Shown here: piece by piece, positions 44,009 to 49,494 of the stretch
Layout of the letters: each line of letters starts with the position of its first letter
Position numbering within the stretch: position 1 is the first letter of the stretch
NCBI RefSeq assembly: GCF_021134715.1
Contig: NC_060017.1
Location: 2,914,001-2,978,000, forward strand
Reading direction: 5' to 3'
DNA from: Daphnia pulex
Lineage: Eukaryota > Arthropoda > Branchiopoda > Diplostraca > Daphniidae
DNA length: 64,000 nucleotides
Notes under the pieces: generated by a model
Databases searched by the model: none
What the model was told of the DNA's origin: nothing
The model's input: only the letters and a program-made list of their open reading frames with translations
Translations under genes and position numbers: made by a program

Positions 44009-44367
44009 ATGGTTGGAGCATACCCCTTGTTGCTACCTGTAATTCTTCTTCTTGTTGTTTGCTCAATTCCGGTGAGTTGGATAGAGTCCTTATAAAACGT
44101 AACTAATTTTCAATTTTAAAAAATAATTTTGTTTCCAACAATAAGAGCACGTCTGGAAGGCCTTTGACATTTAGAGATTTCAATCCAACTGGATCATCGC
44201 CGAATAATACATTCCGCGAGGTAAATATATTGTCCAAAAATTGCATATGTACGACTGCCCCAGATACAAACAGATTTGTCATCTTCAATATGAGTAGATT
44301 AATCTCAGAAAGTCAGCCGACCAAAATTCAAGTCGCAACTTTCCAGGAGACATGGTCGACGGAATAG
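44009..44367 (+). CDS. Possible small secreted protein (94 aa)
   Basis: Tentative two-exon model: 44009-44071 and 44146-44367, joining in phase 0 (285 nt). Exon 1 encodes MVGAYPLLLPVILLLVVCSI, a textbook signal peptide, and ends at a good GTGAGT donor. Exon 2 follows a modest TAAG acceptor and encodes a polar tail with NILSKNCICTTAPDTN and no known domain. It sits 0.56 kb upstream of the Notch-ligand-like gene on the same strand. A separate frame at about 44578-44678, ending at a GTATGT donor, could be another exon of this or a different transcript. I do not recognise the product. Confidence 0.35.
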
Positions 44368-44923
44368 GAATCGTTATCGACGTAGTCTACCGCTTGAATC
44401 AGACTCTTTTGTACGGTGCCTCAGTTCTACGAACAATCAAATGGATCTTCTTCATTTTCAAATTCATTGGCTAAATGGAAACCCAATCTTCATTTTAAAA
44501 TCAATTATTAATATGTTCTGTTTTAAATGACTATTCGTTCGTTGTTTCTTAACTCGTGTTCATCCCTCAATCCTGACTGATTTCCTTCGAGGCGGAAAAA
44601 TGGTGTTATCTAGTTGTTGATATTCAAGTAAACGAAACAAAGAAAAAGGTAAAGAAAGATGGCCATCAGACGTATGACGGTATGTAGTACCTGTTCAGGT
44701 AGTGGAAAGTTGAAAGAGGGGAAGGGGATGCGGAAGCCTCGAAGGCATGTGTTCAACCTCTTTTACTTACCCTGTTCCTCTTTGGGTCATATCATATGCT
44801 GGCGAGTTGTCATTGTTAGTGGTTTGTGTGGTATCATCAGTCATCGAGACAAAGTGCTGCTGCGAGGATTTCTTGATAGTTAAGTTGATTTTATTGCTAG
44901 ACTCCTCCAAGAACCACGTTTAC
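44368..44923 (+). other. Upstream region of the DSL/EGF gene
   Basis: Expected to contain the promoter or 5' UTR of the gene starting at 44924. Open sequence at about 44578-44678 ending in GTATGT is a possible unassigned exon. No TATA box recognised. Confidence 0.4.
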
Positions 44924-47780
44924 ATGGAATCGAGTCTGTTACTGCGTATGATATGGATTGCGCTTGTGCTCGGCATAGAATTCAGTTCGAGTGCGGAAGG
45001 AACCAAATTACGTAAACCGACACCAATTTCTACGTCATGGCAGCGCCAGGTATTTGGATCAAGAATCAACGAGAGCTTTTTATTATTAGATCCGCCACAA
45101 AACAATGTTCTTTATTCATATCTAATGTTGTTGCAAGACAGGCATGTGAGTCGAAAGAGGGTAAAGCAGGGCATTTTACTTGCACTCCAGACGGCCAGCT
45201 AGAATGTTTCGAAGGATGGATTGGAGATTTATGCAACGTCCCCATTTGTAAAAAAGGTTAAGTTGTGAACAAAAGGAACAAATGTAATAAATGCAAAGGT
45301 AATCTTGAATGTCGAGAGGCTTTGTTCTTCTTTAATAGGCTGCGACCCCCTAAATGGCCACTGCAGAGTACCCGGAGAATGTCGCTGCCGGATAGGTCTT
45401 AACATATTTAATTTCTTGCTAAGAAGTTGTTGATAACGATTACATTTTTTTTTCCCGATTACATATGAGCAGGATTTGCGGGGGAGCACTGCCGCGATTG
45501 CGCCTTGTTACCTGGTTGTGTTCACGGGACGTGCAACAAGAGCTTCGAGTGCGTTTGCAAACCGGGATGGACCGGCCTCTTTTGTTCTCAAGGTACCAGC
45601 AACGGTTATTCGGTAAAAAACCAACAGGTTGCTGCCAATCGGAAGCTATTCCACTTCTTGTTCTCATATCTTAAAACTAAACTCGTTCAATAAACTGTGG
45701 TCACGATAAATCCATCTTTTGCCGAGCTGCTGCATTCATGTCCGGGCTATTATAACCTACCACTTGAAAATAATAATAATAACAGCTATTAACCAAAAGC
45801 AAATGACACATGCGATGATATAACAATTCCGCTGACACAATCGCTGACAAAAACACACACAAATAACTTGGTATATAATCAACTGGTTTGAATCGTACTG
45901 CATTTAGATTTATTCAAGCGAAGAATAAATAATGTTGGAGATAACTTAACCATTTCCACGTGACACGCTGGTACCAAGTAATTCTATTTTCGCTTTGGAA
46001 AATCCTTCGAATCTGGGCCACAGCATGTCAAAAAGAAGCAGCCGCTTATGAAAAACTCAACTCTTTTACAGTCGCCATTCTTTTTTAAGGACCGCAAAGT
46101 GCTCTGTACATTTTTAACAATTTCCAACGTCAATTTAGCCACCTGTAAGGAGAGTTGTCATAAAAGCCGGGGATTCTGTGAAAAACCGGGGGAATGCAGG
46201 TGACAACTTGTTCTTTTTTATCAAATTCAAAATTTTGCGTATTTCTAAAACAAACGTGATACTAATGGACGGGCAGCACAGGTGTCGCACGGGATGGACT
46301 GGTGAATTTTGCAACGAATGTCAAACCCTCCCTGGCTGCCACAATGGATTTTGCCGAACGAATCCTCTCGACTGCATTTGCTATCCCGGTTGGACCGGAT
46401 TATTATGCCAAACCCGTACGTACGTAGACTATAAGTGTTCAATTATTTTTGGTTTTAAAACATTCAACAAGGTCAGCCCTTTCAAACTTTCTTGGACCAC
46501 CTGAAAAAGTATAGACTAGTCTGACGTGTTGTTCAATTAGGTTATAAGTGGGCGCGCGCCAGCGTCGCCCGAAATGTACTAAATCTTTCATAAAGTAATT
46601 TAAACCCTGCCAACCCGCGAGAAAAACAGCAGTAGACGTCCAACCTTACGTTTAAATATTCCTTAATTAAAATATTAATTTCTTTACACATTCATGTAGC
46701 CATTTGCAAAAAAGGATGCAGTGCCGATCACGGTTATTGTGAAATGCCTAATCAGTGCAGGTAAGGGCTTACTTTATTTAATCAACGTGATTATTAGCGC
46801 ACCAGTATGGAAACAAAAGACATCACTTGTTTTAATTTCTCCGTTTGTATAATACTCCCTTTTTTTTGTTGTTGAATACTTTCATGCGATTGCAGATGCC
46901 GCGTGGGATGGTGGGGTAGTAACTGCGATGTCTGCCATCCTTATCCTGGCTGCCGGAATGGTTATTGTTTAAAGCCATGGGAGTGCCGCTGTCATCCTCA
47001 TTGGACTGGATTCCTTTGCGACCAAAGTAAATCATTTTGCTTAATACGCACTGATAAGATGCATAAACACATTGAACATATATATACTACCTGCTGAACT
47101 AGTGACATTTTCAAAGCAATAGATATTAAGCTGCCCTGATTCGGGTTAGCTGTTCGTTTTCGAATATGAGATACGCAGCGTTTGGCTGCTAGTAGCCTGC
47201 TACCGATTCATTTTCTATTCAATAATTCATTTTCTAGCCTTTTGGTTTTCTGTCTCTTATACTCTGTGATTCTCTTTGCTCCGTTTGAATAATCAATACG
47301 AAACAGAAATAGTCTCGTGCGCTCGCGACAGTTGCCTCAATGGAGGAACTTGCTTGATGCTGGAGCCGGAACTAAATAATAAAGTGGCCGGAGAAGAAGG
47401 CAATATCACCTGTCTCTGCCCGGCTGCATATACCAGCTCACGTTGTCAAGTGGAGCTCAAATTTCAAGACGAACGGAAATGGATATCACATCGGTCAAAT
47501 CATACTTCCGTACACCTTACACCTTCTATGGGTATAATAGTTATAGTATACTAACATGAAGAAAATTACATGTTTTGATTGTCTTATAGCAGCTTTATTT
47601 AATATGTACGGTAGAATATAATCATTTCGTTATGTTCATGAACTCAAAGGCGGCCAGGTGAATGGAACACTGGATGCGTCATCGTCAAATTTAAACCAAG
47701 AAACTGGTTCCGGCTCACCTGACACTCTTGCCACTGAAGAAAACCGTCCGTGGAATAACCAAACAGGAGACGTCGATTGA
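44924..47780 (+). CDS. Secreted Notch-ligand-like protein: half DSL plus three tandem DOS (double EGF) modules
   Basis: Exons 44924-45049, 45142-45256, 45339-45395, 45473-45592, 46139-46199, 46282-46415, 46700-46760, 46896-47026, 47307-47531, 47650-47780. 1161 nt, 386 aa, frames consistent. Signal peptide at about 1-25. Residues 43-73 (ACESKEGKAGHFTC, then CFEGWIGDLC) match only the C-terminal half of a DSL domain. Three copies of the Delta-type EGF1-EGF2 pair (DOS motif) follow at about 76-139, 140-204 and 205-268, each of the form C-x3-C...GxC..P.xCrCR.Gw.G..C..C...PGC..G.C....C.C...WtG..C. Next comes one ordinary EGF (SCLNGGTC...CLCPAAYTSSRC, about 272-310) and a 75-residue polar tail ending TGDVD. 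No transmembrane segment. The MNNL domain and first half of DSL expected in canonical Delta/Serrate are absent. It is likely a soluble, non-canonical Notch-pathway ligand or modulator (inference). Confidence 0.88.
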
Positions 47781-48096: not shown

Positions 48097-49395
48097 TTAG
48101 GAACTCTGTTCAGATACGTAAGGAACGGTTGACGTTTGCGGTGCTTCGGTGTAGAAGAGCGCTCGTTGAATGCCAGCAAAGATTCGATCAGCAAAGCGGA
48201 CTACAAGGCAACCTCGAATCTCTCTGAAAAAAGCAAATGACAAAAATGATGTTAGTTTATTCGATTTGCCACCGGTTAGATGTTCGTGAATTTACCTGGC
48301 CGAGCAGTCGTAGTAGCGGTGTACATTGGATTTAAGAACTTGTTCTGCCACCCGAAAGAAATTTGAATTATCGTATTCCTCGGCTCCAATAGCAGAATGC
48401 AAAATCAGGCACATCGAAGTCTCCACTTTCCCCGTTAATCTATAGAATTACATCAGACATGAACACATTGCTATTTCAAATAGAGCGCAGGGGCAATGGG
48501 TTTGCTTACTGTCGAATGTTTTGGTGTTGGGCATGGTTCTCGGAAGGACAAAATCGGGCAGAATCGTAGGCGTCGCGAATCATCAAATGCAAATGAGCCG
48601 CTGTGATCATCATACCGCGATAAACTTCCTTCAATTGAATTTCACCCTAGTGCGTGAAGGAATAATAATGTTTAATTTGCAATTCAACTCATTCGACATG
48701 AAAAATATTTTACCTGGGGGGAAACGAGTAGATCGTCGTTAGGCAGTGACTGTAACTGAATGCCATCACATTGTTGTAGACCCTTGAAATAATAATTTAA
48801 AAAAAAGACTGTCAGATTTGGATGGAAAAGTGGAAGAAGAAAAACTGATTGCTAACCGATGGGGGATAAATGTGGCGGGCCAAGTGCATGGCTTCCAAAA
48901 CTACGAGTTTAAACTCCTGGGCCAAAGCGGATCGCTCTTCGTTCGTGTAATTCCGGTTGGCGTAGCGATCGCGAAGAGGTCCCAGGAAACCGAGAGTCTG
49001 TTGCTCCAAAGTGGCGTTGGTGTCGAGATTTCTCAATGGAGCCGGTGTCGCTTGCTGGACATTGGAGTCGAACTGATTGACCGGTCTCTCCGTCGCTATG
49101 CCGGGCCAACTGGGTTGCGTTGGGTTCATTGTCGAAGAGGCGGCCATGAATCCGCACGGATTCGCCAGGAAATTGATGAATGGAAAGCGCAGCAACGTCT
49201 CGACGGTTTGCTGCTGTCTCCACGAGCGCGGTGGACTCACCGTCGCCGCTGAAACGATCGGTCGTGACGCCAAATAAACGCAGCCTGTTGTACCATTGAA
49301 TGGAATTAGTAAAACATGTTGCTAAGGAAAAGAACTATAACGAACGCAAGTGATAACTTACAAAAGTAGAAGTAAATTATCGTCTTGAAGTACAT
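48097..49395 (-). CDS. Unrecognised secreted protein (312 aa)
   Basis: Minus-strand exons: 49395-49362, 49284-48857, 48782-48714, 48646-48510, 48439-48296, 48223-48097. 939 nt, 312 aa, frames consistent. It begins with a hydrophobic signal peptide (MYFKTIIYFYFCCVYLAS). Residues 30-130 are Pro/Gln/Asn-rich with possible N-glycosylation sites (NYT, NAT). The C-terminal half is more ordered and helical, with cysteines in QQCDGI, ARFCPSE, TSMCLIL, YYDCSAR and RGCLVV. I see no known domain. It looks like an arthropod-specific secreted protein, perhaps a cuticle, salivary or reproductive factor, but function cannot be inferred. A TATA/Inr promoter lies about 100 bp upstream. Confidence 0.82.
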
Positions 49396-49494
49396 GTTTG
49401 GTTTTCTACTAAGATGTTAGACTGGTGTAAAATTCGATTTGAAGTTTGGTCGGGATGACAAAAGGCAGGAAAAGGTAAGAAGGATGATTCGGAG

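Follow-up and report, generated by a model that had tools for sequence, protein, structure and literature searches.

The gene at 44924-47780 (+) is most plausibly read as a duplicated Notch-ligand gene with a Serrate-like exon layout that may have become a secreted, DSL-disabled modulator of Notch acting via its DOS modules, likely as a competitor, a reading to which we assign a probability of roughly 45%. The window is the whole stretch of 64,000 nucleotides that was analysed (C1:2914001-2978000), and the genome searches covered the 133.2-Mb assembly of 13 contigs. Judged by sequence, the favoured gene model combines a signal peptide with the lack of both a membrane anchor and a working DSL domain, of which a remnant is present.

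Gene model and domain composition

Rebuilding the gene yields 10 exons, 1161 nt including the stop codon, encoding 386 aa in a continuous frame, with GT-AG boundaries at all nine introns, as in the complete 10-exon, 386-aa model proposed in an earlier sequence-only reading. Intron length ranges from 77 to 546 bases, and GC content is 50% in exons and 35% in introns. None of 20,000 random sequences of equal length and intron composition stayed open, indicating that the open frame is not due to chance. The locus lies well inside an 8.3-Mb contig. The exons, and one stretch outside the favoured model, are as follows.

44924..45049, +, exon 1: carries the start codon and a signal peptide, read as about aa 1-24 and assigned by hydropathy, ahead of a linker
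45142..45256, +, exon 2: remnant of DSL (cysteines 3-6 of 6; aa 44-73, bases 45145-45234), matched by Pfam DSL, and the first DOS1 cysteine
45339..45395, +, exon 3: EGF1 part of DOS1; although its donor, gtctta, is weak, joining it to exon 4 re-establishes the spacing of the EGF
45473..45592, +, exon 4: remainder of EGF1, then EGF2, completing DOS1 (aa 78-137); open frame 43.8 bits for EGF_DL_JAG
46139..46199, +, exon 5: EGF1 part of DOS2; ends 0 codons past the cysteine in phase 2, like Serrate and Delta
46282..46415, +, exon 6: remainder of EGF1 and EGF2 of DOS2 (aa 142-202); open frame 33.2 bits for EGF_DL_JAG
46700..46760, +, exon 7: EGF1 part of DOS3; intron place and phase like Serrate and Delta
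46896..47026, +, exon 8: remainder of EGF1 and EGF2 of DOS3 (aa 207-266); open frame 34.9 bits for EGF_DL_JAG
47307..47531, +, exon 9: ordinary EGF (aa 273-315) with CLNGGTC, aligning to Jagged1, followed by the first part of the tail
47650..47780, +, exon 10: remaining, polar part of the C-terminal tail, without a hydrophobic anchor by hydropathy, and the stop codon
47171..47292, +, outside the favoured model: stretch of intron 8 that may serve as a different last exon, coding for a hydrophobic tail (hydropathy 2.22)

Four of the nine exon junctions (2/3, 3/4, 5/6 and 7/8) exactly restore EGF cysteine spacing, and three (4/5, 6/7 and 8/9) fall between domains at the intron place and phase of Serrate. 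Homology supports neither the 1/2 nor the 9/10 junction, both of which rest on splice signals and phase. The 46 cysteines that follow the signal-like start correspond to the expected sum of four in the DSL remnant and six in each of seven EGFs. Several weak donors (gtctta, gtacca) and a third-position GC of 0.47, compared with 0.73 in the frame of Delta's large exon, would suit an untranscribed or decaying gene; this explanation is nevertheless very improbable, given 10 exons free of stops and frameshifts, an even cysteine count, intact EGF spacing and the four junctions that restore it.

Pfam matches were judged by curated cut-offs. The profile search that the earlier reading had suggested, with DSL, DOS-type EGF and EGF families, places both DSL and EGF_DL_JAG above cut-off in the spliced protein. 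EGF_DL_JAG is the strongest family (119.5 bits, cut-off 27, over six stretches), ahead of the teneurin family EGF_TEN (88.9 bits), and DSL scores 32.8 bits (cut-off 24.2) over profile positions 12-45 of 46, the open frame of exon 2 itself reaching 37 bits. One ordinary EGF follows the DOS pairs as had been described, although the open frame of exon 9 scores 20.4 bits for Pfam EGF, slightly below the cut-off of 21.5. Of the solved structures, Jagged1 (E 2e-39) and Dll1 (E 1.7e-32) match best, in agreement with the Notch-ligand origin proposed earlier.

The EGFs of WIF1, teneurin and HHIP also match the protein, the DOS pairs are only 30-42% identical to seven reference ligands at non-cysteine positions, and the residues of the DSL face described below are gone. 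These observations would fit an EGF protein whose link to Notch has been lost and which serves in matrix, immunity or another pathway. However, Jagged1 and Dll1 are far ahead of WIF1, which appears at 1e-17 after most ligands, EGF_DL_JAG exceeds EGF_TEN, and no WIF or HHIP domain is found among the ten Pfam matches of the spliced protein at E up to 1, making a function outside Notch signaling unlikely.

Just upstream, at 44009-44530 (+), lies a second signal-like frame with hydropathy up to 2.6 and plausible splice sites, continued by an Arg-rich frame, perhaps encoding a small secreted protein. These frames were considered as part of the gene and rejected, having no Pfam match over cut-off; they were taken as a separate small gene or chance. 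On the other side, 48130-49420 (-) reads as a convergent multi-exon gene, two frames of which have no Pfam match, and by reading it is separated from the stop codon of the present gene by about 350 bases. No tRNA genes and no Rfam families at gathering score are found in window positions 1-64000.

DSL remnant and DOS-type pairs

The DSL domain is truncated, as the sequence-only reading had proposed, but it extends beyond the last third to half of the domain assigned there: the remnant comprises the last two of three disulfide loops, with cysteines 3-6 and 34 of the 46 Pfam positions, and no complete six-cysteine DSL is found in the protein. DSL disulfides connect consecutive cysteines (PMC3415683), so that loss of C1 and C2 leaves only full pairs and the even total of 46. 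In Jagged1 the residues F199, R201, R203, D205, and F207 are located on the DSL face that binds Notch (PMC3415683). As read from the alignment, the five corresponding positions are A, E, K, G, and A in the remnant, none of them the Jagged1 residue, and L, R, R, D, and F in both Delta and Serrate of the same genome, each of which keeps four of five. Non-cysteine identity of the remnant to the seven references is 22-33%, compared with 41-78% among the references themselves. This pattern indicates that the part of DSL that grips Notch is erased and that the scaffold is retained.

An upstream exon encoding MNNL or the start of DSL, which would have pointed to a longer ligand, was not found: among forward-strand frames of 28000-50500 neither the canonical MNNL profile (best E 0.68) nor a profile of the N-terminal half of DSL (best E 0.61) gives a match above chance. 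The positive control for the N-half scan, the Delta exon at 62.3 bits, is itself in the profile and shows only that the scan works. Read-through of intron 1 in the open frame 45016-45261 was considered as a source of a full DSL exon and rejected, the frame scoring only 0.8 bits against the N-half profile. In this frame a cysteine lies 13 residues ahead of C3, which is the C1-C3 spacing of DSL; by reading, C2 and the YYG region are absent, and the weak profile stretches lie elsewhere in the frame. The 3' end of intron 1 has a T-rich tract and AG. The open, in-frame intron 1 (45016-45141, +) may be left over from the first DSL loop, now lost, or may be due to chance. The partial state of DSL is dependent on the join of exons 1 and 2, which is the junction at the start of the domain unsupported by homology.

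The DOS consensus was used as printed in PMC11162419. Only DOS3 of the three pairs satisfies it strictly; the consensus W is replaced by F in DOS1 and by L in DOS2, and all three pairs match if F or L is allowed at this position. Four of the seven reference pairs pass the strict form, and those that fail are Dll4 and the Delta and Serrate of this genome, Serrate having F for the consensus W and Delta having L at the basic position (both loci are on contig C5, near 9894222 and 10981950). The published consensus is thus too strict for this lineage, and all three pairs can fairly be called DOS-type, in keeping with the three consecutive DOS pairs described from the letters.

One DOS proline matters in Dll1 (PMC6986876), and the proline of this type is present in all three pairs. 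Tyr255 of Jagged1 is kept in none of them and is likewise absent from Serrate and Delta of the same genome. The loss of W in two of three pairs together with that of Tyr255 in all three suggests that contact with Notch may be weak. The three pairs share 38-40% of their non-cysteine residues with one another, indicating that the duplications are old or that the pairs are fast-evolving, and a tree groups them weakly (75/86), with a warning from the tool about long branches.

Signal-like start, C-terminus, and membrane anchor

Hydropathy was evaluated on the Kyte-Doolittle scale in windows of 19 residues. The signal peptide proposed earlier is supported by a hydrophobic, signal-like start in exon 1, with a best value of 1.66 in the windows from residues 3-5. 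The favoured model likewise has no transmembrane segment, as had been stated, its highest value past residue 40 being 0.83.

A downstream exon encoding a membrane segment had been named as an observation that would alter this picture. None was found downstream, where acceptors between 47560 and 48125 give no membrane-like tail, but the stretch in intron 8 does encode a hydrophobic one, in frame from an acceptor before 47171. Its hydropathy of 2.22 is reached by 19 of 400 dinucleotide shuffles of intron 8, before counting the three other stretches tested, and the stretch coincides in part with the T-rich tract ahead of exon 9; acceptors in introns 4 and 6 and 3' of exon 9 give at most 1.34. From these values a membrane-tailed isoform through intron 8 appears possible though unlikely, and an additional membrane-tethered isoform in general, whether by this alternative last exon or another missed exon, is quite improbable.

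Relatives, intron layout, and proposed role

Matches to the DSL family in the genome number three at E up to 0.001, namely Delta, Serrate, and the present gene. MNNL has two matches at E up to 1, both on C5 and belonging to Delta and Serrate, consistent with the lack of MNNL noted for the gene. EGF_DL_JAG has 14 matches at E up to 0.1, five of them over cut-off: Delta, Serrate, two exons of the gene (DOS1 and DOS3), and a match on C12 that lies about 1.5 kb from the Notch NOD domain; the Notch locus itself is identified by NOD at 58.1 bits. The DOS2 exon reaches 25.5 bits in this search, under the cut-off of 27. Such genome searches score the best candidates only. At the DNA level the single match in the genome is the gene itself. 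At the protein level the 20 own-genome matches at E up to 0.01 comprise 9 from the gene, 2 from Serrate, 2 from Delta, 1 from Notch, and 6 weak others, the best besides itself being Serrate (2.6e-13) and Delta (3.4e-13). The gene is a third DSL locus without MNNL, and no close paralogue was found. No relatives were found in viral contigs, a collection not meant to hold crustaceans. A genome-contig collection, also not meant to hold crustaceans, was queried with exon 8 only; one locus of 33 pattern matches, in a bacterial MAG with bacterial-looking frames, was dismissed as chance.

In all three DOS units the intron after EGF2 lies two codons and one base past the cysteine, as in Serrate, whereas Delta has no intron at this place. 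The EGF1 introns of DOS2 and DOS3 are in phase 2 and directly follow a cysteine, which holds for Delta and Serrate as well. DOS1 (45247-45585, +) differs from DOS2, DOS3, Delta, and Serrate in intron placement, having one intron between the first two EGF1 cysteines and one a few codons farther than in the others, which counts against the favoured reading. Each DOS unit forms a phase 1-1 pair of exons and can therefore be duplicated without a frame shift, so that with its Serrate-like introns exon-pair duplication explains the DOS triplication. A single intron underlies the suggested Serrate-like origin, and Delta may have lost it; sequence identity does not clearly favour Serrate as the source.

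Compared with the canonical DSL ligands Delta and Serrate/Jagged, the product shares DSL cysteines 3-6, the DOS module directly after DSL, and the positions and phases of the introns in the DOS unit, Serrate's above all. It differs in lacking MNNL, the first DSL loop, the conserved DSL face, and, in the favoured model, the anchor, and in having three DOS pairs instead of one and a single ordinary EGF. In the proposed mechanism a ligand ancestor would have lost these parts, including the receptor-binding face, and its DOS exon pair would have been duplicated twice. Jagged1 EGF1, EGF2, and EGF3 contact Notch EGF10, EGF9, and EGF8, respectively, and an O-fucose on Jagged1 EGF3 touches Notch EGF8 (PMC7922208). 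DOS3 together with the ordinary EGF mirrors the Jagged1 EGF1-EGF3 layout, and the protein may bind Notch EGF8-10, possibly with two or more of its DOS modules, lacking the grip that MNNL and DSL have on EGF11-12. The last EGF shares with Jagged1 EGF3 the CLNGGTC loop, which we take to be an O-fucose site.

The loss of the DSL face, none of whose five residues is kept, leaves DOS and the last EGF as the expected route of any contact with Notch. Of the earlier proposal of a secreted agonist or decoy, the secreted layout is retained, and neither a simple canonical agonist nor a decoy acting through DSL is likely. Soluble ligands may act as Notch antagonists (PMC9001970), and a protein without an anchor cannot pull on the receptor, making a competitor the likeliest reading; the protein would modulate Notch, with competition against Delta and Serrate as the likeliest mode. 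Secretion, the order of events, Notch binding, and the sign of the effect are all inferred.

In the main rival reading the protein would be secreted and, like OSM-11 and DOS-3, would act as an agonist or co-ligand, its DOS modules helping Delta or Serrate or activating Notch alone. Secreted DOS-only proteins of C. elegans are reported to activate Notch rather than inhibit it, DOS-3 overexpression being effective even with reduced lag-2 function (PMC11162419), mammalian Dlk1 can substitute for OSM-11 (PMC9001970), and DOS3 of the present gene fits the strict consensus. On the other hand, Drosophila ligands carry both DSL and DOS, no arthropod precedent for a DOS-only protein being named in PMC11162419, and the lost DSL face and divergent W positions look like drift from canonical contacts; an agonist of this kind is therefore doubtful, though a serious contender.

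In composition the protein also resembles C. elegans OSM-11, OSM-7, and DOS-1 to DOS-3, which likewise have DOS without a working DSL and with which, in the case of DOS-3, a signal peptide is shared (PMC11162419); here, in contrast, a DSL remnant and three two-EGF DOS pairs of the Delta/Serrate form are present. DLK1 and DLK2, with six EGFs, and EGFL7, with an EMI domain and no DOS triplet, differ in build from the present protein. DLK1 and DLK2 too have DOS without DSL (PMC11162419), and soluble forms exist, but they are described as transmembrane proteins lacking DSL (PMC4283135). Like the predicted product, EGFL7 is a secreted EGF protein, and it antagonises Jagged1 and Notch activity (PMC4283135). 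DLL3 is also a ligand derivative with a degenerate DSL and inhibits Notch, but it is a membrane protein found mainly in the Golgi (PMC7353046) and is described as having no DOS motif (PMC9001970). Cnidarian DSL-only genes are also an unusual rearrangement of Notch-ligand modules, but they multiply DSL (1 to 11 repeats) and not DOS (PMC2770060). No protein of like architecture was found in the literature among the matches listed.

The role of DOS without a working DSL is called poorly understood (PMC11162419). A natural protein in which DOS is retained and tripled but the DSL face lost separates the two parts and makes this role directly testable, in an animal whose other DSL loci in our search are just Delta and Serrate. 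Taken further, and only tentatively, the gene may be a lineage-specific, dedicated soluble Notch modulator in which the DSL grip of a Serrate-like ligand was erased and DOS was multiplied, so that DOS alone would address the receptor several times; it would then be the arthropod equivalent of the DOS-only ligands of nematodes, and the first of them to carry DOS in tandem. The preferred reading would illustrate a route from membrane ligand to soluble modulator by way of symmetric exon-pair duplication.
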